Positions 46,523-63,097 of a stretch of DNA of 64,000 bases are shown one piece after another. Origin of the DNA: Blepharisma japonicum (lineage: Eukaryota; Ciliophora; Heterotrichea; Heterotrichida; Blepharismidae); the NCBI GenBank assembly GCA_949751835.1, contig CATKHK010000049.1:62001-126000 (forward strand). Direction: 5' to 3'. Each line of letters begins with the position of its first letter. Within the stretch, counting starts at the first letter, position 1. The notes below the pieces were generated by a model. The model was not told the origin of the DNA and did not search any database. It saw only the letters and a program-made list of their open reading frames with translations. The translations under genes were made by a program, and so were the position numbers.

Positions 46523-47173
46523 ATGTTTGATCCAAGTATGTTCATTAGTGATCGTGACACAAACGATACCGATGGGCATGAACAACCCTTTCTTCCACCG
46601 GATTTCCAACAATTCTTTGTCCCTAACATTCAATATGACGCTGAAAACCCAGATCTCGCTAAGAAAGAAGATGCAAGTGATAGTCTATTTATGCCTCATC
46701 CTGATGTCGATAATTTTGACCCTAGCGTGTTTTTTAATTTCGACCCTGGTTTTATGCAGCCAGATTCACAAGAAATTCGCAGACTTATATCTCAGCCATT
46801 TGATTATTTTTCTATGATAAGTTCAGAGCAAGGAGAAAATAAAAATAATAATAAAGATAAACAAGTGAAGAAATATGAAAATAATTTGCTTCCGAAGCCG
46901 AAAACTATATACTCCCAAAGTAAAAAGATTGGAACCCTTACTTATGAAGAGCGTAGAGAAAAAATTACGAAGTATTTAGAAAAGAGAAAGCGAAGAAATT
47001 TTAATAAAAAAATAGCGTATGCATGCAGAAAACGGGTAGCAGATGACAGGATTCGGGTCAAAGGAAGATTTGTAACAAAAGTGCAAGCCGAAGCACTTAA
47101 AGGGTTGCAAAATGAAAAAAATAATGTGTCCTTACCAATTAAGAGGGATTGAGATAAAATAATGAATAGTTAA
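46523..47173 (+). CDS. CCT-motif (CONSTANS/TOC1-like) protein, copy 1
   Basis: 216 residues, with TGA at 47150-47152 read as Trp, so the stop is TAA 47171-47173. The N-terminal 130 residues are acidic, Pro/Phe/Asp-rich (transactivation-like) with short DPxxF repeats. A CCT motif covers ~148-192: TYEERREKITKYLEKRKRRNF, then ACRKRVADDRIRVKGRFVTK. Aligned CCT sequences in plant clock and flowering regulators carry the same R-x-KGRF ending, which contacts DNA with NF-Y-type partners. This suggests a transcriptional regulator. A paralog lies at 56901-57467. Confidence 0.87.
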
Positions 47174-47404: not shown

Positions 47405-48436
47405 ATGGTCGACAACAGTGTTTCAATAGAAGACTTCACCCTCCTTAGTGTTATCGGTAAAGGGTCCTATGGAAAAGTTCTTCTTGTAAGAAAAAACAAC
47501 ACTGGCGAAATGTTGGCTATGAAGATGCTGCGAAAAGAGTTTATTGCTCGTCGTAACCAAATAGAACACACACGCACCGAAAGAAGTGTTTTGGAAAGGG
47601 TAAATCATCCTTACATCGTAAAGCTCAAGTATGCCTTTCAAAGCCCGAAGAAGCTTTATTTTGTATTAGAATATTGCCCTGGAGGAGAACTTTTCTTTCA
47701 CTTATCGCGAGCACAACGTTTCGATGAGCCTCGAGCAACATTTTATGCTGCTTGTATGGTTCTGGCTATAGAACATCTTCATTCCCTTAATATCGTGTAC
47801 CGAGAGTAAGCATTATTTAGCCTTAAACCCGAAAATATTTTAATTGATGCTGAAGGTTATGCAAAAATAACAGACTTCGGGTTATCAAAAGAAAATATTG
47901 TCGATAACACAGGCGCTCAGTCTTTTTGCGGGACTCCTGAGTACCTTGCTCCAGAAATTTTGGCGAAACAAGGACATGGGAAGGCGGTTGATTGGTGGAG
48001 CTTAGGCGCTTTGATTTTTGAGATGCTAACAGGACTTCCACCATTTTACACAAGAGACAGAGAAAAACTCTTTAATAGCATTTTGCATGAGGATATCAAT
48101 TTCCCTACTTATCTTTCAAATAATGCAAGAGATTTATTACAAAGATTGTTTGTAAAAGATCCTTCGCAAAGACTAGGCTGTGGGCCAAACGACAGTGAAC
48201 CGATAAAGTCACACCCATTTTTTGAATCAATTAACTGGGGAGCATTGTTAAGAAAGGAAATGAGACCTCCATTCTTACCTACTGTAAGCAGTGACCATGG
48301 CCTCAATAACTTTGAAGACGAGTTCAAGAAGATGCCAGCCGTTGACTCTGTCGGGAAAGATTCAAGGTTGCAAGGCGCAGCTAGTCCAACTTATCAAGGA
48401 TTCAGCTACGTCAATGAAGGGATACCTGACCAATAA
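47405..48436 (+). CDS. AGC protein kinase of AKT/SGK/PKN type
   Basis: Exons 47405-47805 and 47821-48436, 15-nt intron gtaagcattatttag; 338 residues. The intron splits the HRD-type loop YRDLKPENIL, and removal restores Asp and frame exactly. Other motifs: GKGSYGKVLLV, AMKMLRK (ATP lysine), ILxEPGGELFF (substrate groove), DFGLSKE, the activation loop TGAQSFCGTPEYLAPE with the PDK1-site threonine, SQRLGCGPND and the C-tail turn motif plus hydrophobic motif YQGFSYV, where serine is phosphorylated by TORC2. No PH domain precedes it, as in many protist AKT relatives. Its tail is the source of a decayed duplicate at 49903-50058. Confidence 0.92.
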
Positions 48437-48554
48437 TTATTGAATAAAAGCTTGGCTTTTAATCATTTTATTTTCTAAATTCTAATAAAATTATTCGAAA
48501 AATTTACCTTAAGTATTTATATCATTTTTTTTACATTAATAGTAATAATCAGTG

Positions 48555-49214
48555 ATGGAACCTCAACAAAGATTGCTTGGATCTGCTGAAAATAGCAGAG
48601 ATCCTGCTTCAGCTCTTGCAGAAATAGAGCAAAAAATCAATGGCACTCTTCAGAGAATAGGAGCTGTTAACATAGAATTAGCAGCTTTATATAATGCAAA
48701 TTACCAAAATTTCAATGCAGCTTATGATAGGGTTCAAAGTAGTTTAGCAGCCATAAATCAAATTGGTATTAATGAGCTCCGCTCATGTTCACAACCATTA
48801 GAACAAATTGAAAAGATTACAAGAGGAGTTTTGGTTCTTTTAAGGTGCAATGATCTATCATGGAGTGCTTTCAGAAACCTCTCAAGAGAACATTTTTTGG
48901 AAAGTTTAACAAATTTTGACATTCTTAATGATTCAAAGAAGAGAATTACAGAATTACAGCCAATTATTGACGAATTTCAAGAAACTGGAGAGGACTTACG
49001 CAGATTTTCTATAACTGCTTTTAAATTGTATATTTGAATATCAGCGGTTTATCAGCTTTGCCGAGCTCTTTCTCAATATAACCCTATTGGGCAATTAAGA
49101 GCAGAAATAGATGAAAAAAGCCAAGAGATTGCTAATTTACAGAATAAAGTGATTGAGGGACGTAATAAAATCCAATTGCTTAGAGAGCAAATAGAAAATA
49201 TTAACGGCCGGTAA
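48555..49214 (+). CDS. Free-standing dynein-stalk-like protein, A-type copy 1
   Basis: 219 residues. N-terminal coiled coil (about 20-75), a globular core (about 77-180), and a C-terminal coiled coil (180-219). The core reads INELRSCSQPLEQIEKITRGVLVLL, LSWSAFRNLSREHFLESLTNFDIL, PIIDEFQETGEDLRRFSITAFKLYIWI and YNPIGQLRAEI. This order (helix-break proline, ILLG-type helix, W, FLxxLxxFD, S-x-A-x-x-L-x-x-W and a second proline) is that of the microtubule-binding tip and adjoining stalk of dynein heavy chains, with no AAA+ modules. The Trp at the LYIW position is a TGA (49035-49037). Related copies are at 50178, 51062 and 52388. It could bind microtubules or act as a decoy or cap of dynein sites; this is inference. 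Confidence 0.75.
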
Positions 49215-49347
49215 TCTTTATAGTTATTTTTCTATAAATTTATAAAAGGATTTAAACAGTGAAGGATTTTCTAGTTCTAATTTGTGATAGTATTCATAGA
49301 ATTTTATTATAAAATCTAAATAAAATTCTCATTAAAAATTATAAGTA

Positions 49348-49640
49348 ATGGAGCCTTACTCGAGAATATTAGAAGCTATTGAAAAAATGGATATCCTTCC
49401 TCAGCTCTTGCAGAAATAGAACAAGAAATCAATGAAATCCGTGCACTTGCAAGGCCAGCATAATGAGTGAAAGGGCTGCACAAGGAGTTTTGATTCTTTT
49501 TGGGAGCAATAGTTTATCATGGGATGCCATCAGAAAACCTTCAGGAGATCACTTTTTGAAGAATTTGACAGCTTTGATATTTATAATATTTCAAATAAGA
49601 AAATTGAAGACTTGAAATCAACAGTAGGCAATATCGACTA
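49348..49640 (+). pseudogene. Decayed B-type dynein-stalk-like copy
   Basis: Begins with an ATG and a start nearly identical to the 51062 and 52388 genes (MEPYSRILEAIEK), then has a one-base loss, an in-frame TAG and a deletion of about 140 nt between the caatgaaat and ccgtgcacttgcaaggcc segments. Further on VERAAQGVLILFGSNSL-type and LTALIFIIFQIRK-type codons are recognisable but shifted. It cannot give a full-length product. It lies between the A copy 1 gene and the decayed kinase tail. Confidence 0.7.
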
Positions 49641-49902
49641 GCAGCACTTTGCAGGGTGGAATTTTTGAAGCTTTCATCTTACATTTATAGTAGTTGTGAG
49701 TAATCGAATTAAAAAATATTTTAGACAAATACCTAATGGGATGCACTATTACTTTAAGCTACTAAGGTGTTAGGGTTTTAATTTGTTATGGTGCAAAGTA
49801 AAGCCATTTTATATTTTATCACGTGAAAAATCGACATCATGCACCGATCGGATTTCCTTGCATAACTTATTTTGATTTACCAATCTATTTCGAACTTTAT
49901 AT

Positions 49903-50058
49903 CTACTGTAAGCAGTGACCATGATCTTATAAATTTGAAGATGAGTTCAAAAAGATGCCAGTCGTCGATCTGTCAGGAAAGATTCAAGGTTGCAAGGCGC
50001 AGCCAGTCCAAATTATCAAGAATTCAGCTACGTCAATGAAGGGATACCTGACCAATAA
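49903..50058 (+). pseudogene. Duplicated and decayed 3' end of the AKT-like kinase gene
   Basis: Nearly identical to 48281-48436, the last ~155 nt of the kinase gene, including the coding sequence for SYVNEGIPDQ and TAA, and to about 115 bp of its 3' flank. It carries small deletions that break the frame. It continues directly into the A copy 2 gene at 50178, just as the real kinase continues into A copy 1, with an offset of about 1622 bp. This marks the boundary of a tandem duplication. Confidence 0.88.
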
Positions 50059-50177
50059 TTATTGAATAAAAGCTTGGCTTTTAATCATTTTATTTTCTAA
50101 ATTCTGATAAAAATTTTCGAAAATTTACCTTAAGTGCTTATAGCATTTTTTTTTTAAATTAATAGTAATAATCACTA

Positions 50178-50837
50178 ATGGAACCTCACCTAAAAACGCT
50201 CGAAACTGCTGAAAATAACAGACACCTTGCCTCAGCTCTTGAAGAAATAGATTATCAAATCAATAGAATTCTTCAGAGAATAGGAGCTTTTAACACAGAA
50301 TTGGCAGCTTTATATAGTGCAAATTGCCAAGATTTCCAAGCAGCCTATAATGCAGTTCAAAGTAGTTTATTGGTAATAGATCAAGTTGGTATTACCGAGC
50401 TTCGCTCATTCCCAATTCCAGCAGAGCCAGTCGAAAAGGTTGCACGGGGAGTTTTGATCCTTTTTGGGTCCAATGATTTATCATGGAGTGCTTTCATAAA
50501 CCTCTCAAGAGAACATTTTTTGGAAAGTTTAGCTAATTTTGATATTCTTGATAATCCAAGAAAAAGAGTCACAGAGCTACAGCCAATTATTGACGAATTC
50601 CAAGGAAGCGGAGTGGACTTGCGCAGATTTTCTATCACAGCCCACAAACTGTTTAATTGGATACTAGGGGTTTATCAGCTTTGCCAAGTTATTTCTCAAT
50701 TTAATCCTACTAATCAATTAAGAGCAGAAATAAATGAAAAACGACAAGGGGTTGCTAGTTTACATCAAAGACTAGCTGAATTGCGTAATGAAAGTGATCT
50801 GCTTAGAGAACAAATAGATAATACTAGCAGTAGTTAG
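50178..50837 (+). CDS. Free-standing dynein-stalk-like protein, A-type copy 2
   Basis: 219 residues, TAG stop. Domain layout as for the 48555 gene: coiled coil 20-75, core with TELRSFPIPAEPVEKVARGVL, DLSWSAFINLSREHFLESL, NFDILDNPRKRV, VDLRRFSITAHKLFNWILGVYQ and a second coiled coil 185-219. It has TGG where A copy 1 has TGA in the NWI/YIW position, independent evidence that TGA is Trp. Upstream sequence matches the 3' flank of the kinase. The A-type core has a shorter loop than the B-type copies. Confidence 0.78.
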   Translation: MEPHLKTLETAENNRHLASALEEIDYQINRILQRIGAFNTELAALYSANCQDFQAAYNAVQSSLLVIDQVGITELRSFPIPAEPVEKVARGVLILFGSNDLSWSAFINLSREHFLESLANFDILDNPRKRVTELQPIIDEFQGSGVDLRRFSITAHKLFNWILGVYQLCQVISQFNPTNQLRAEINEKRQGVASLHQRLAELRNESDLLREQIDNTSSS

Positions 50838-51061
50838 TCTTATAATAAATTCATTTTCAAATAATGCAGATTTCTGGTCAAATTTTTAAAGTTATGAGAG
50901 CAGCCATCAGAATTTTACTATAAATTAATGCCTACCAGCAGATAATGTAAATATTATTATTGCCTGCTGTATCCAGTCTATGGAAAAAAGGTTAACAGTA
51001 GAAATGTTTATATTCTCTGTCAGCAAGCGTAAAAAAAAATTCTCATTGGCAATAATAAGCA

Positions 51062-51739
51062 ATGGAGCCTTACTCAAAAATATTAGAAGCTATTGAAAAA
51101 AACGGAGATCCTGCCTCAGCTCTTGTAGAAATAGAACAAGAAATCAATGAAATTCCTCACAAAATAGAAGTTGCAACTGCAGAATTAGCTAGTCTACGTG
51201 AAGAAGAAAATTCATATAACGCCAATCTCCCAAATTACCAAGCAGCTTTAAATGCAGCTAATAGTCACTTGGCAACATTATCAAAATCGGACCTTAACGA
51301 AATCCGTTCACTGGCAAGGCCAGCAAAAACAGTTGAAAGGGTTGCACAAGGAGTTTTGATTCTTTTTGGGATCAATAGTTTATCTTGGGATGCCTTCAGA
51401 AAATTTTTAGGGGACCGCTTTATGGAGAACTTGACGAATTTTGATGTTCATAATATTCAAAAGAAGAAAATTGAGGATCTGAAGCCAATTATTGATGAGT
51501 TCCAAGGACATGAGGATCAGATACGCAATGTTTCTCATGCTGCTTATGGATTGTATATGTGGGTATTTGGGGTCTATCAGGTTTATCAGCTTCTTCATCA
51601 GTTTAGGCCTATTGGGCAGATAAGAACAGAAATAAATGAAAAAAGCCAAGAGATTGCTGATTTGCAGCAAAAATTACTGGAAGCGCCAATAGCAATTGAG
51701 GTGCTTAAAGAAAAAATAGATAAAATGAATAATCCTTAA
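51062..51739 (+). CDS. Free-standing dynein-stalk-like protein, B-type copy 1
   Basis: 225 residues, no TGA. First coiled coil ~20-80 (EIEQEINEIPHKIEVATAEL, NAANSHLATLSKSDLNEIRS). Core 87-183: RPAKTVERVAQGVLILFGI, LSWDAFRKFLGDRFMENL, NFDVHNIQKKKIEDLKPIID, and IRNVSHAAYGLYMWVFGVYQVYQLL. The second coiled coil starts at the FRPIGQIR proline (~183) and ends near 223. The L-x-K-S-D-L-x-E-I-R then P-x-x-V-x-x-V pattern closely resembles the end of the dynein CC1 helix and the tip. Length between the two boundary prolines is about 96 residues, shorter than in typical dyneins. An N-terminal methionine start and no targeting signal suggest a cytosolic protein. Confidence 0.78.
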   Translation: MEPYSKILEAIEKNGDPASALVEIEQEINEIPHKIEVATAELASLREEENSYNANLPNYQAALNAANSHLATLSKSDLNEIRSLARPAKTVERVAQGVLILFGINSLSWDAFRKFLGDRFMENLTNFDVHNIQKKKIEDLKPIIDEFQGHEDQIRNVSHAAYGLYMWVFGVYQVYQLLHQFRPIGQIRTEINEKSQEIADLQQKLLEAPIAIEVLKEKIDKMNNP

Positions 51740-51764
51740 TTCTCCTTTATAATTGTTACTCTAA

Positions 51765-52110
51765 AAATGCAGCATTTATAATCTTTTGCACTACTGGAGA
51801 AGATACATGTATTTGTCTAAAGAGTGATGTCCAGAACGGAGGTAAAGATAAAACCTTCATGGAATCGCGCGATTTGTGAAGCTCGATAGTGCCAGGTTAT
51901 CCTTAAAAAGAGGAAGAACAATTTATTATGCAGCGAAAATGTCTAGAGATAGCGAGCCTGAGTACTTCCTTGAATTTGTTCTCACAATGTAACACTGGAA
52001 GAGTTCTTCTAGCCTTCATGCTGGAGTTGACGCTCGTATATTAAAGCGAAGACCTTAGGTAGCTGGGGAAGTGGCATTCAACCCTAACCTTGATAATTTT
52101 CAAGATTTTA
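51765..52110. repeat. Diverged non-coding repeat, copy 1
   Basis: About 345 bp with recognisable similarity to 53478-53825: both start with ctactggaga, share gtgatg, gtaaagataa, tttgtgaa and attatctt-type words in the same order, and end with ggcattcaaccct and ccttgataa. Both follow a B-type copy or fragment. It has no open frame. It could be a decayed gene or the spacer part of the duplication unit. Confidence 0.6.
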
Positions 52111-52132
52111 AAGCATCATATATTACAAAATA

Positions 52133-52265
52133 TATAATTGAATATTAGGGGTTTATAGGTTTTGTCAAGCTCTTTCTCAGTTTGACTCTATTGAGCACTA
52201 AGAGATTGCTATTTAAAAAGAAAAGCTTGCAGGACATGATAAAATCAAATGGTCGTTATTCTTTA
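52133..52265 (+). pseudogene. Fragment of an A-type dynein-stalk-like gene
   Basis: Matches the codons after the SITAxKL position of the A-type genes (ggggtttatagg, caagctctttctcag, agagattgct, aaaatcaaat) but has lost frame and most of its 5' part. It ends near the same sequence that closes the A genes. Its place between B copy 1 and B copy 2 fits an A-B pair whose A member has decayed. Confidence 0.65.
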
Positions 52266-52387
52266 TAGTATTTTTACTATAAATTCATTTTATGAAATAA
52301 TTCAAATAACTTGATTTAATTCTTGATAGTATTCATCAGAATTTTACTATAAATTTTAAATAAGATTATGATAAGAAATAATTAGTA

Positions 52388-53065
52388 ATGGAATCTTACT
52401 CAAGAATATTAGAAGCTATCGAAAAAAGTGGAGATCCTGTCTCTGCTCTTGCAGAAATAGAACAAGAAATCAATGAAATTCCTCAAAAAATAGAAGCTGC
52501 AACTGCAGAATTAGCCAGTCTACGCGAAGAAGAAAACTCATATAATGTCAATCTCCCAAATCACCAATTAGCTTTAAATAGAGCCCAAAGTTCGTTGTCA
52601 GTATTAACAAAATCGGGCATTAAAGAAATCTGTTCTTTTGCAAGGCCACCAAGAGCAGTTGAAAGGGTTGCACAAGGAATTTTGATTCTTCTTGGGAGCA
52701 ATAGTTTATCTTGGGATGCCTTCAGAAAAATTTCACGAGACAACTTTTTGGGGGATTTGATGAATTTGGATATTTATAATATTCCAAATAAGAGAATTGA
52801 ACTTTTAAAGCCAATTATTGATGAGTATCAAGGTCAGGAGGATCAGATTCGCAATGTTTCTATTGCTGCTTCTGGATTGTATATGTGGGTATTTGGGGTT
52901 TATCAGTTTTATCAGCTTCTTCATCAGTTTAGGCCTATTGGGCAAATAAGAGCAGAAATAAATGAAAAAAGCCAAGAGATTGCCGACTTGCAGCAAAAAT
53001 TACTGGAAGGACCTAATACAATTGAGGTGCTTAAAGAAAAAATAGATAAACTAAATAATCCTTAG
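52388..53065 (+). CDS. Free-standing dynein-stalk-like protein, B-type copy 2
   Basis: 225 residues, no TGA. Very similar to the 51062 gene at both ends and more different in the core, mostly around GIKEICSFARPPRAVERVAQG and NFLGDLMNLDIYNIPNKR. The PPxxVxxV form is the commonest dynein form of this helix. It keeps the SxAAxGLYMWVFGVYQFYQLL helix and the FRPIGQIRAEI start of the second coiled coil. It is preceded by the remnants of an A-type gene. Confidence 0.78.
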   Translation: MESYSRILEAIEKSGDPVSALAEIEQEINEIPQKIEAATAELASLREEENSYNVNLPNHQLALNRAQSSLSVLTKSGIKEICSFARPPRAVERVAQGILILLGSNSLSWDAFRKISRDNFLGDLMNLDIYNIPNKRIELLKPIIDEYQGQEDQIRNVSIAASGLYMWVFGVYQFYQLLHQFRPIGQIRAEINEKSQEIADLQQKLLEGPNTIEVLKEKIDKLNNP

Positions 53066-53249
53066 CTTTTATTTTTTTACTGAAATATTTTTCTGCTGGG
53101 AAATATGTATTGGTCACCTCCATTCTAACATAGGATGTCGCCTGTTTTGACGCCAACTTGGATTGTCCACAGACTAAACCTGTTTATTTTTGAGAGCTAC
53201 TTTTGTTTGAAATTCCTTGCTAGAATCTGCCAGTGTCTAGAGCAGATAT

Positions 53250-53453
53250 GTGGTGCTTCTAATTATACTTATGAATTGTATATTTGGTTATTTAGAATTT
53301 ATCAGGCTTGCCAGCTTCTTCATCAGTTTAGACCTATTGGGTAAATAAGAGCAGAAATAAATGAAAAAAAAGCCAAGAGATTGCTGGCTTGCAGCAAAAT
53401 TACTATAAAGGCCTAATACAATTGAGGTGCTTAAAGAAATAAATAACCCTTAA
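53250..53453 (+). pseudogene. Fragment of a B-type dynein-stalk-like gene
   Basis: Contains the codons for LYIWLFRIYQACQLLHQFRPIG, then an in-frame TAA where the B genes have CAG/CAA, and further one-base insertions in the caagagattgc stretch. Only the last third of the gene is present. It is followed by the second copy of the non-coding repeat. Confidence 0.7.
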
Positions 53454-56900: not shown

Positions 56901-57467
56901 TTAATTAAGCGACGCCTGACAAGGCGAGTTATTTTCAATTTGCATTTGAGCATTCATTTGTTTTTGCTCTTCCAATAGTAAGCAGGCTTGCTCTTTAGTG
57001 ACAAACCGTCCTTTAACTCTAATTCTTTTATCAGCAACTCTTTTTCTACAGTCATAATTAATTCTTTTATTCCAAGTCCTCCTTTGACGCTTGTCCAAGT
57101 ATCTTTGGACTTTTAGATGTCGCTCTTCTAGAGTTAGACTTCCAATTCTTTTTATAGTAAAATCTGGTATTTCTTTGTCTTGATATAAATTTTCTTGACT
57201 CAATGATTTACTAGGCTGCTTATCATAATATTCAGAAGTCCCTTCTGATACAGCAGTGCTTGCTTTATCGCTTTGCACTGAATCTGGCTCAATAATAGGT
57301 AAATCTTCTATGTCCAATTTTAAAGTATCTGAAGGAACCAAAACAAATAGTGGATCTGTTTCATATAGCACATCTATAAACGAAGGAGATCCCATTGGGG
57401 AATCACAAAATCTTCCTTCCGTGTCCATATCGAGCTCATCGAAACTTTTATTCTCTTTATGTTCCAT
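56901..57467 (-). CDS. CCT-motif (CONSTANS/TOC1-like) protein, copy 2
   Basis: 188 residues, intronless. Acidic N-terminus (about 1-110), followed by a CCT motif at ~118-160: TLEERHLKVQRYLDKRQRRTW, then DCRKRVADKRIRVKGRFVTKEQA. This matches the 46523 protein in the LTxEER lead-in and the RIRVKGRFVTK end, so the two are paralogs. The C-terminus is glutamine-rich. It is divergent from the DIX-J gene. Confidence 0.87.
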   Translation of the reverse strand: MEHKENKSFDELDMDTEGRFCDSPMGSPSFIDVLYETDPLFVLVPSDTLKLDIEDLPIIEPDSVQSDKASTAVSEGTSEYYDKQPSKSLSQENLYQDKEIPDFTIKRIGSLTLEERHLKVQRYLDKRQRRTWNKRINYDCRKRVADKRIRVKGRFVTKEQACLLLEEQKQMNAQMQIENNSPCQASLN

Positions 57468-57805: not shown

Positions 57806-58768
57806 ATGTCAAAGGTCTCCATGATCCATTACACACTTCAAGATGAAGGGAAAAAAGAGCTTTACCTCTATTCTACTCAGGTTTCTCAAGGAAATGAAGT
57901 GACAGTCAAAGATATAAGAAAATCCTTCCCAGTCCCAGGCCGCTTCTTTTTCCGCTTCCGTACAATAATTCAAGAAGAAAATCCTCCAGCAACCGTCTGG
58001 CTTGATCTTCCAGAGGACGATTCTCCAATACCTTTTTATAAAGGCTATATCTATGTCAAGGCTTTACAACTTCCTCCATTCGAAAACAAAAGTCTCTTAA
58101 AGCCAGTCCGGAAGGTCTATAAAGCAGCCTCTTCAGGTTTTTCTTCAAGAAACCATCATAACAGGGAGCCAGATCCTCCACAATTTCAGCGAAAAATTAG
58201 TGATTTTATGGATTTTCCACAAGAGCCTTCTCCAAAGCAAAAGCCAGTAGATGTAAGATCGCACTCCCAAGAAACTCCAAGGCCTCCTCATGAATTGCAG
58301 AAAAATCATTTTATGAGTGCTTTAAATGACCCTACAAATGGACTGAGCACTCAAGAATTGATAGAAAGAAAAGAAAAGTTCATACAAGAGCAAATGAAAA
58401 TTAAAGCAGAATCAGCTAAAAAATCATGGGCTGCTGAAGAAGAAGGGAAAAATCATAGGCTGAATGCTGAAAAAGAGTTCGGGGAGACTATTAATAGGTG
58501 GGAAACTAGAAACTTGCAGAAAAACAATATAATTACGCTAATTTCTACAATGCAAGGAATTTTATGGCAGGGCGCAGAATGGAAACCTATAGGCCCAGGG
58601 GATCTACTAACCCCAAAACAAGTGAAAATCGCCTATATGAAAGCAATTATGATAGTCCACCCCGATAAGCATCAACAAGATCCACCTCATATCAAATACA
58701 TCGCTGATAGAGTTTTTGGAGCATTGAATAACGCTTATAAATTATATCAGCAACAAAATAATTCTTAA
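57806..58768 (+). CDS. DIX-like domain plus auxilin-type J-domain protein
   Basis: 320 residues, intronless. The N-terminal ~100 residues resemble a DIX/DAX domain: VTVKDIRKSFPVPGRFFFRF, a following VWLDLPEDDSPIPFYKGYIYVKAL with the acidic W/E-D-D, P-x-F/Y and KVL pattern seen in Dishevelled and Axin, which polymerise through this fold. A proline-rich linker (about 115-190) and coiled coil follow. The C-terminal J domain (about 240-318) has LLTPKQVKIAYMKAI and the HPD motif in IVHPDKHQQ, with the extended auxilin/GAK N-terminal helix (LWQGAEW). Auxilins recruit Hsc70 to uncoat clathrin vesicles. A DIX module would allow higher-order assembly on the coat; that link is inference. Confidence 0.8.
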   Translation: MSKVSMIHYTLQDEGKKELYLYSTQVSQGNEVTVKDIRKSFPVPGRFFFRFRTIIQEENPPATVWLDLPEDDSPIPFYKGYIYVKALQLPPFENKSLLKPVRKVYKAASSGFSSRNHHNREPDPPQFQRKISDFMDFPQEPSPKQKPVDVRSHSQETPRPPHELQKNHFMSALNDPTNGLSTQELIERKEKFIQEQMKIKAESAKKSWAAEEEGKNHRLNAEKEFGETINRWETRNLQKNNIITLISTMQGILWQGAEWKPIGPGDLLTPKQVKIAYMKAIMIVHPDKHQQDPPHIKYIADRVFGALNNAYKLYQQQNNS

Positions 58769-59786: not shown

Positions 59787-61094
59787 TTATACCTCTTCCT
59801 CAATAATGCTTTCAAACGTAAATTTTTTTCTATTTCCATTTCCATTCAGGGGCTGGGACCTCCTTGATCGCTTTGGCTGCACTCTAACTCACCTTTCCGG
59901 ATACTTCAGCTCTTCCTCAATAAAATCCCCCCATTCGTCTACAGGAATATTTTCCAGTATTGCTTTTTCATATAATTTTGAAACTGGGACAAGTTTTACT
60001 AATTCTTTTGAACTATTTTGCATTTTATGTGCTAAACATTGGGAATAAAAATATTTTTGTAGAGACTCTTTTGTGTCTTCAATTGAAATCCTGCTATTTT
60101 CAGTTTCAACCGTATCAAATTCTCCTTGATTTTCATCACAAAATGTTGATCTAAAAGAGCTAGCTGAATTTAATGATTCAATACTGCTAAATTCACTGTT
60201 GACACTTTCCAATAATTTCAAATTCAGCCTTAATTCGGGGTTATTTTTTTTAAAAAATGTTTTTTCTAAGCTTTCAGCCTTATCTTTAAAAATTTTTACT
60301 TGCTTTTTTAGTTCGGTGACTTCTTTCATTTTGCTTTCGATTTCGATTTTTTCAATACTTTGTATGGCTTGAGATTGCTCTTGGGAAATAATGAGTAGCC
60401 GCTCGCTATAGATTCTTAATGATAAAGAGCCTTTGAAATTTCCCAGCATTGATTTAATTGATCTTATTACTTCTAAAGTTGCAGCCCCATTGAGTGTATT
60501 ATTAGAATCCAATAATCTTCTACATAACCACTTAAGATTGGCTATAATATTTCGCTCTAAGGGCCTATATAAAGCTTCTTTTTCTTTATTTTCTAAAAAA
60601 TTTCCCATTTTTTGGATTTTTATGTGTAAATTCTCAAGGTCACTTTGACAGTCACTCTTTAAAATTGAAGCTGACAATTTTGTACAAATAAACGAATGCC
60701 TTTCGATAAAGCTTTCAGGAATCATTTCTTGGCAATTAATACAAAGAATCCCAAACTCAACTTCAGCAACGTCATCATTAATCGAATTAAAATCTCCAAG
60801 AGGAGGAACCAAATATTTTACTGGACTTTTTGTATTTTTCAAGGGAATTTTTTTGATTATTTTCTTGATTTGTTTTTTAAAGTGAATTAAATTTATTTTG
60901 GGATTCTCGTTAGGAGGAGTCTCAATGTCGTCTTGAGTTTCGTTAAAATTTAGCATGCTTAGATCTCCTTTTACAGGTGATAAATAGTTTTTAAGTTGTC
61001 TTTTTGGATCCCTTTCGGAATTATTTTGACGGTAATAAATGCTCTTGTGATTTATTGTAGAGTTAGGAGTAAGAAATAATTTTTTTTCTACCAT
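59787..61094 (-). CDS. Zinc-finger and coiled-coil protein, duplicate 1
   Basis: 435 residues, one exon if TGA 59889-59891 is Trp (PERWVRVQ); the sister copy has TGG at that point. Features: a basic N-terminus, a CINCQEMIPESFIERHSFIC segment (C-x2-C-x12-H-x3-C, a C2HC-like zinc knuckle) near 115-135, coiled coil around 225-280 (IEKIEIESKMKEVTELKKQVKIFKDKAESL), a serine-rich linker and a conserved C-terminal FTFESIIEEEV. The family is not recognised. It is very similar (about nine in ten residues) to the 61796-63097 gene, a recent tandem duplicate. Confidence 0.78.
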
Positions 61095-61795: not shown

Positions 61796-63097
61796 TTAAA
61801 CTTCTTCCTCAATAATGCTTTCAAACGTAAATGATTTTTTACTTCTATTCAAGGGCTGTGACCTCCTTGATCGCCTTGAATGAGCCCTAACCCACCTTTC
61901 CGGATACTTCAGCTCTTCCTCAATAAAATCAGCCCATTTATTTACAGGAATATTTTCCAGTATCGCTTTTTCGTATAACTTTGAGGTTGGGACAAGTTTT
62001 ACTAATTCTTTTGAACTATTTTGCATTTTAAGTGCTAAACATTGGGAATAAAAATATTTTTGTAGAGACTCTTTTGTGTCTCCAATTGAAATCCTGCTAT
62101 TTTCAGTTTCAACCGTATCAAATTCTCCTTGATTTTCATCACAAAACGTCGATCTAAAAGAGCTAGCTGAATTTAATGATTCAGTGCTGCTAAATTCACT
62201 GTTAACACTTTCCAATAATTTCAAATTCAGCCTTAATTCGGGGTTATTTTTTTTAAAAAATATTTTTTCTAAGCTTTCAGCCTTATCTTTAAAACCTTTT
62301 ACTTGCTTTTTTAGTTCAGTGACTTCTTTTATTTTGCTTTCGATTTCGATTTTTTCAACACTCTGTATGGCTTGAGACTGTTCCTGGGAGATGGTGAGTA
62401 GCCGCTCGCTATAGATTCTTAATGATAAAGAGCCTTTGAAAATTTCCAACATTGATTTAATTGATTTTATTACTTCTAAAGTTGCGACACCGTTGCAGGA
62501 ATTATTAGAATCCAGTAACCTTTTGCATAGCCGCTTAAGAACGGCTATAATATTCCTCTCCGAGGGCCTATATAGTTCTTCTTTTTCTTTAATTTCTAAA
62601 AAATTTCCCATTTTTTGGATTTTTATGTGTAAATTCTCAAGGTCACTTTGACTGTCACTCTTTAAAATTGAAACTGACAATTTTGTACAAATAAACGAAT
62701 GCCTTTCGATAAAGCTTTCAGGAATCATTTCTTGGCAATTAATACAAAGAATCCCAAACTCAACTTCAGCCGTGTCATCATTAATTGAATTAAAATCTCC
62801 AAGAGGAGGAACCAAATATTTTACTGGACTTTTTGTATTTTTCAAGGGAATTTTTTTGATTATTTTCTTGGTTTGTTTTTTAAAGTGAATTAGATTTATT
62901 TTGGGATTCTCGTTAGGAGGTGACTCAATGTCGTCTTGGGTCTCATTGAAATTTAGCATGCTTAGATCTCCTTTTACAGGTGATAAATAGTTTTTAAATT
63001 GCTTTTTGAGGTCTTTTTCGGAAATATTTCGATGATGATAATTTGGATGGTGATTTATTTGAGAGTTAGGAGTAAGAAATAAATTTTTTTCCACCAT
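61796..63097 (-). CDS. Zinc-finger and coiled-coil protein, duplicate 2
   Basis: 433 residues, one exon, no TGA. Same layout as duplicate 1: C-x2-C-x12-H-x3-C knuckle near 115-135, coiled coil about 225-280, serine-rich linker, and ending FTFESIIEEEV. It has TGG (Trp) at the position of the TGA of duplicate 1 and a slightly different C-terminal basic patch (AHSRRSRRSQPLNRSKK against VQPKRSRRSQPLNGNGN). Function unknown; the basic tail and zinc knuckle could suggest nucleic-acid or tubulin binding. Confidence 0.78.
   Translation of the reverse strand: MVEKNLFLTPNSQINHHPNYHHRNISEKDLKKQFKNYLSPVKGDLSMLNFNETQDDIESPPNENPKINLIHFKKQTKKIIKKIPLKNTKSPVKYLVPPLGDFNSINDDTAEVEFGILCINCQEMIPESFIERHSFICTKLSVSILKSDSQSDLENLHIKIQKMGNFLEIKEKEELYRPSERNIIAVLKRLCKRLLDSNNSCNGVATLEVIKSIKSMLEIFKGSLSLRIYSERLLTISQEQSQAIQSVEKIEIESKIKEVTELKKQVKGFKDKAESLEKIFFKKNNPELRLNLKLLESVNSEFSSTESLNSASSFRSTFCDENQGEFDTVETENSRISIGDTKESLQKYFYSQCLALKMQNSSKELVKLVPTSKLYEKAILENIPVNKWADFIEEELKYPERWVRAHSRRSRRSQPLNRSKKSFTFESIIEEEV

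Follow-up and report, generated by a model that had tools for sequence, protein, structure and literature searches.

Stand-alone dynein stalk-tip genes in the ciliate Blepharisma japonicum

The microtubule grip of dynein is set by its motor ring, through sliding of the stalk helices. What, then, is a stalk that is encoded apart from any ring, and could it still hold a microtubule? A 64,000-nucleotide stretch of the Blepharisma japonicum genome (contig CATKHK010000049.1, positions 62,001 to 126,000; hereafter the window) poses this question, as a sequence-only reading had described in it a tandem array of four intact genes for 219-225-residue proteins built like the tip of the dynein heavy-chain stalk. 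Four open frames are indeed present at that position, W1 needing TGA to be read as tryptophan:

48555..49214, + strand: stalk-tip gene W1, 219 amino acids; frame 48555-49211, stop TAA at 49212-49214, in-frame TGA read as Trp
50178..50837, + strand: stalk-tip gene W2, 219 amino acids; frame 50178-50834
51062..51739, + strand: stalk-tip gene W3, 225 amino acids; frame 51062-51736
52388..53065, + strand: stalk-tip gene W4, 225 amino acids; frame 52388-53062

All four proteins match PF12777, the profile of the dynein heavy-chain stalk, above its curated Pfam cut-off of 24 bits (W1, E 1.8e-7, 30.9 bits; W2, E 1.3e-8, 34.7 bits; W3, E 3e-16, 59.8 bits; W4, E 1.8e-17, 63.9 bits), so the stalk assignment withstood the profile search, and the residue pattern quoted in its favor for the dynein tip core is visible in the alignments. 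The matches fall within profile positions 65-255 of 344, where the frames end. Judged by this alignment, the matched part is the distal half of the stalk, with about 65 positions of the first coiled-coil helix (CC1) and 90 of the second (CC2) missing, and none of the window proteins is a full-length stalk reaching the AAA4/AAA5 ring. W3, the sole window protein modeled, is predicted by AlphaFold2 (predicted local distance difference test score, pLDDT, 86.5; predicted template modeling score 0.65) to form a CC1 helix at residues 17-70, tip helices at 75-180 and a CC2 helix at 184-223. This antiparallel stalk with a helical tip again agrees with the assignment, and its best structural matches (Foldseek, VIA) are solved dynein stalks and microtubule-binding domains (MTBDs). 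Two unnamed chains also align to the model, 7jtk_C (radial spoke 1; 3.8 A over 167 residues) and 9fqr_Xl (sperm axoneme; 3.0 A over 124 residues), and may possibly represent MTBD-like folds in other axonemal proteins.

A generic coiled coil was ruled out as the source of these matches. Three control proteins from the window, chosen as coiled coils by eye, aligned to the dynein profile with hhalign E-values of only 0.08-0.29, whereas the window group reached 6.5e-24, and the matches span the helical tip, beyond the coils alone.

We also considered whether the four frames are exons of a complete heavy chain. A genome-wide PF12777 search returned 25 matches: besides the four genes of the window, 21 full stalks. 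Searches with AAA_8 and AAA_9 gave strong matches at the very same 21 loci, each with its own full stalk; each search added two weak matches, four in all, far below the strong ones. Neither AAA_8 nor AAA_9, the two ring modules searched, matched anywhere on the window's contig. As their strong matches all lie at the 21 stalk-bearing loci elsewhere, the window stalks stand without an adjoining ring, as had been claimed, and the exon reading is ruled out. The same loci bear on a further possibility, that the small proteins serve in trans as the stalk of a heavy chain lacking one. A precedent might be sought in DNAH12, described in the available text of PMC11949491 as a dynein without an MTBD; if that description holds, DNAH12 is a ring without a tip and the Blepharisma genes are a tip without a ring. 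However, positions 6-280 of 280 of a Blepharisma dynein stalk align with DNAH12 chains (E 1e-36), which makes for a weak precedent, and a full stalk lies between AAA_8 and AAA_9 in 21/21 strong heavy-chain loci. We regard a split dynein as highly improbable.

Under the standard code W1 would stop at the TGA at 49035-49037, whereas with TGA as tryptophan it is full length; W2, W3 and W4 carry TGG at this site. TGA is read as tryptophan in the window because a TGA in another of its genes (59889-61094, - strand; no Pfam match at E<=0.001) aligns with a tryptophan of its tandem paralogue at 61796-63097, and because in-frame TGA is present in 3 of the 21 full stalks that this genome's dyneins carry. 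For Blepharisma stoltei, the available text of PMC9942806 gives UGA as tryptophan and introns of predominantly 15-16 nt. Genetic code, 15-nt introns and closest proteins (below) mark the organism as Blepharisma-like but different from the sequenced B. stoltei.

The window genes belong to a wider family. A genome search with W3 brought the stalk-only family to 11 intact frames, W1-W4 included, spread over six contigs. The remaining members comprise one on contig C30 (217 amino acids, 34% identical to W3), three in tandem on C45 (234-236), one on C99 (244, with one further uncertain frame on that contig), and two with a longer second coil and one 15-nt intron each, inferred from the frame, on C29 (396) and C61 (361). 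Broken stalk copies occur on C14, C45, C87 and C99 and in the window. The sequence-only reading was right on the four intact genes of the array; it had missed three broken remnants between genes and the members elsewhere in the genome. The distant members are recognized through the genome's own dyneins, with profile E-values of 5.2e-13 for C30, 3.1e-10 for C45 and C99 together, 2.1e-8 for C29 and 2.7e-6 for C61. PF12777 itself matched none of eight dispersed pieces at E<=0.1 (C30, two from C14, three from C45, C3 and C29; C99 and C61 were not run). A sequence search of the PDB gave a dynein match at 7.6e-8 for C61, and only at 0.014 for C29 and 0.049 for C45. The W3 search reached two C45 genes at 1.5e-7 and 2.1e-7 and the third at 0.215; a C45 search showed the third to be 68% identical to the first.

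The C29 and C61 proteins have cysteine-rich C-termini, ending KKKCCGFV and GCCRSRFFCF, and are possibly lipid-anchored, judging by these residues. Separately, C3:222400-224400 encodes (- strand, 293-1744) a 484-residue protein whose N-terminal domain is IMPACT-like (PF01205, E 3.7e-6) and whose residues ~195-343 are dynein-MTBD-like; its best PDB match is a Chlamydomonas 4625-residue AAA+ chain (E 3.1e-7), followed by DNAH10. By homology, here too an MTBD would lie outside a motor, though in a protein of different build.

Relatives also exist in a second species. B. stoltei P0003 is 69% identical and related to the window branch, and B. stoltei P0004 (166 amino acids) is 80% identical (132/166) to the C30 gene; a model of P0004 (pLDDT 60.2) was of too low confidence for use. 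P0001, an MMETSP transcript protein marked complete, with no species shown, is identical to W4 at 224/225 positions. P0002 agrees with W3 at all of 167 residues but comes with no stated source and was used in support of nothing. These four were the only relatives returned by searches that reach proteins of similar length sharing exact words, with W3 (886 candidates), a five-row alignment (the best 8000 by shared words scored) and C30 (99 candidates) as queries. No relative outside Blepharisma was found in this way, which does not prove their absence. Viral contigs yielded 59 pattern matches and no relatives, and phage records no matches. P0003 carries the automatic name of a dynein stalk-domain protein, so the domain had already been flagged by software; P0004 is named 'uncharacterized'. 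In the open-license literature, judged on titles and abstract openings, we found no paper on stand-alone dynein stalk genes, and the B. stoltei genome paper (PMC9942806) has no word starting 'dynein' in its main text. What is new here is a known domain in a motor-less, multi-gene form.

We then asked how well these tips fit tubulin. The available text of PMC7042235 lists as contacts of yeast dynein K3117, E3122 and R3124 (H1), R3152 and R3159 (H3) and R3201 (H6), and for Dictyostelium proposes instead R3423/K3424 in mid-H3. By our own counting along the mouse/human and Dictyostelium sequences, we mapped these contacts and scored them as five features. W1 and W3 keep four of the five, W2 and W4 three, and P0003 all five; the genome's own 21 dyneins keep 2-5 (median 4). 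Letters drawn at random from the same rows score as high as the real ones in 0-1.35% of 2000 trials per row, but shared ancestry by itself would likewise raise the score.

We slightly favor the reading that these are motor-less stalk tips, free of the ring, that are predicted to dock on tubulin at the dynein site. The evidence comprises homology, the predicted fold of W3, separateness from every heavy chain found, occurrence in a second species, one transcript protein and the contact features. Two observations weigh against it. The net charge of the core is -2 in W1 and -3 in W2, whereas 17 of the 21 dyneins are positive, and this acidity makes tight microtubule binding less likely for these two. 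Distant members, moreover, lose contacts (C45 keeps 2-3 of five, C29 2 and C99a 0). Both observations also speak for a re-purposed fold, in which the tip is kept as a coiled-coil scaffold or adaptor and tubulin binding is lost. The acidic cores of W1 and W2, the several contact residues missing from C45, C99 and C29 members and the weak constraint on the family (below) all fit this alternative, and the solved complex of light chain LC1 and a dynein tip (6l4p, as far as its entry describes it) indicates that a tip can bind partners besides tubulin. On the other hand, P0003 (5/5) and W3 (4/5) retain K-x4-E-x-R in H1 and, in H3, an Arg-Lys pair aligned with Dictyostelium R3423/K3424. We consider re-purposing rather unlikely.

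How might a tip dock without its ring? According to the available text of PMC7042235, an isolated yeast tip can shift to the strong-binding registry on microtubule contact, without the ring, and a short ringless stalk could therefore dock by induced fit. Having docked on tubulin, a free tip would then detach at a rate set by itself alone, and in this way passively occupy or mark dynein sites without being a motor. That the proteins bind microtubules, compete with dynein or regulate it, and where in the cell they lie, are inferences. Site occupancy, crosslinking of cortical microtubules and register sensing, as put forward in the sequence-only reading, might each be served by such tips. More tentatively, the Blepharisma dynein-tip family as a whole could occupy the dynein site, its branches tuning affinity and the C29 and C61 proteins tethering microtubules to membrane, as natural blockers or spacers.

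The surroundings of the four genes bear on their origin, and contain the following features:

47405..48436, + strand: protein kinase gene, directly upstream of W1 (Pkinase E 7.8e-35 for 47819-48433)
49318..49616, + strand: broken W3/W4-like copy, internally deleted and interrupted by frame breaks (84-89% to W3 by blastn; recovered by tblastn in pieces across several frames)
49900..50183, + strand: defunct duplicate of the 3' end of the kinase gene plus intergenic stretch (blastn 90.6% to 48276-48560)
52125..52288, + strand: broken remnant, tail part (blastn 75-80% to pieces of W1, W2 and W4)
53240..53445, + strand: broken remnant, second half (blastn 83-85% to W3/W4), with stops (tblastn) and frame breaks

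The kinase gene has a 15-nt, in-frame intron at 47806-47820, read from the sequence. The C30 stalk gene lies directly downstream of a paralogue of this kinase, in the same orientation. Synonymous (dS) and nonsynonymous (dN) divergence are 1.73 and 0.08 for the kinase pair and 1.90 and 0.69 for W3/C30, values of dS above ~1.3 being near saturation and allowing only a loose reading. A single duplication of a unit of kinase plus stalk would fit these values, with the stalk protein changing about nine times faster thereafter. The presence in B. stoltei of a C30-type relative, P0004, makes both branches appear older than the species split. In a tree of 34 MTBD cores (21 dyneins and 13 family rows), W1-W4 group with P0003 (support 82) and C30 (94). 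W1-W4 also cluster with one another apart from P0003 (78), which suggests that the array expanded by tandem duplication in this lineage. At the deep nodes that connect the other branches, support is 41-52, so the tree does not show a single origin of all branches or single out a parent dynein; by sequence score DNAH2 comes out best. Altogether, the distal half of a heavy-chain stalk was probably set loose from its motor in an old event, as a short antiparallel coiled coil with its tip, then copied jointly with the neighboring kinase gene and later multiplied in tandem.

Within the array, W1 and W2 are 64.7% identical over 215 amino acids, and the dead kinase-tail copy before W2 (49900-50183) marks one duplication unit. 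When 48276-49211 is compared with 49900-50834, the kinase tail and intergenic part differ by ~8% and the W1/W2 coding part by 19-26%, a contrast that may reflect gene conversion upstream or accelerated change of the genes. The paralogue pairs L017/L018 and L022/L024 and the two kinases have dS of about 1.4-1.7; these three values, near saturation, could mark an old large-scale duplication in the lineage.

Are the genes maintained, or are they debris, open fragments of duplicated dynein genes without function? The three broken remnants in the window, several others elsewhere and the fast evolution of the family would suit debris. Against this, dN/dS is 0.36-0.65 in 8/8 pairs (W3/W4 0.59, W1/W2 0.52, W1/W3 0.61, W3/C30 0.36, W2/C30 0.65; three C45 pairs 0.49-0.62), compared with 0.03, 0.04 and 0.22 for three pairs of this genome's dynein stalks. 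Bootstrap intervals of pN/pS, the corresponding ratio of proportions (6 of 8 pairs), lie below 1, except that W3/W4 reaches 1.00. These ratios point to genes that change fast yet are maintained, under weak purifying selection. Start and end are near-identical across species (P0003 MEPYS...MNNP), P0004 has kept its likeness to the C30 gene and a transcript protein matches W4. The window copies, moreover, have gene-like starts and stops and their own short CC1 and CC2, with no AAA4/AAA5 match attached. We therefore think debris improbable.

Other neighbors of the cluster include two flanking CCT-like genes, at 46523-47152 (PF06203, E 2.2e-17) and 56901-57467 (by eye only). At 57806-58768 a DIX domain (PF00778, E 1.2e-7) is joined to a C-terminal DnaJ-like stretch (E 0.00011, under the Pfam cut-off).

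Set beside the dynein stalk, the stalk-tip proteins share the profile, the order CC1, helical tip, CC2, and the predicted fold, and by our scoring they keep 3-4 of the five tubulin-contact features, two of them with an acidic core; they differ in lacking AAA+ ring, linker and tail, in being 219-225 residues in all, in their tandem arrangement and in their fast evolution. The flap of DNAH7, as described in the available text of PMC6629372, has no counterpart in them, there being no such insert between H2 and H3. Seryl-tRNA-synthetase/dynein MTBD fusions (3err, 3j1t, 6rza) are likewise motor-less tips with a short stalk, and the titles of 3j1t and 6rza describe them as tubulin- or microtubule-bound. 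These fusions, however, are laboratory constructs of fixed registry, whereas the stalk-tip genes are natural and their coil is free. The proposed mode of action resembles that of tau and MAP7, non-motor microtubule-associated proteins competing for the lattice, whose occupancy of it alters motor traffic according to the available text of PMC5902456, with the difference that the stalk-tip proteins would bind through a module taken from the motor itself.

Together, these findings suggest that the gripping module of a several-thousand-residue motor can split off as an independent gene family. If the proteins still bind, Blepharisma would have a natural means to occupy or mark the dynein track, and an in vivo test of how far competition for sites controls dynein traffic. 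Natural grip-only proteins would reveal how the stalk behaves without its ring, and would provide ready-made probes or inhibitors of the dynein-microtubule contact.

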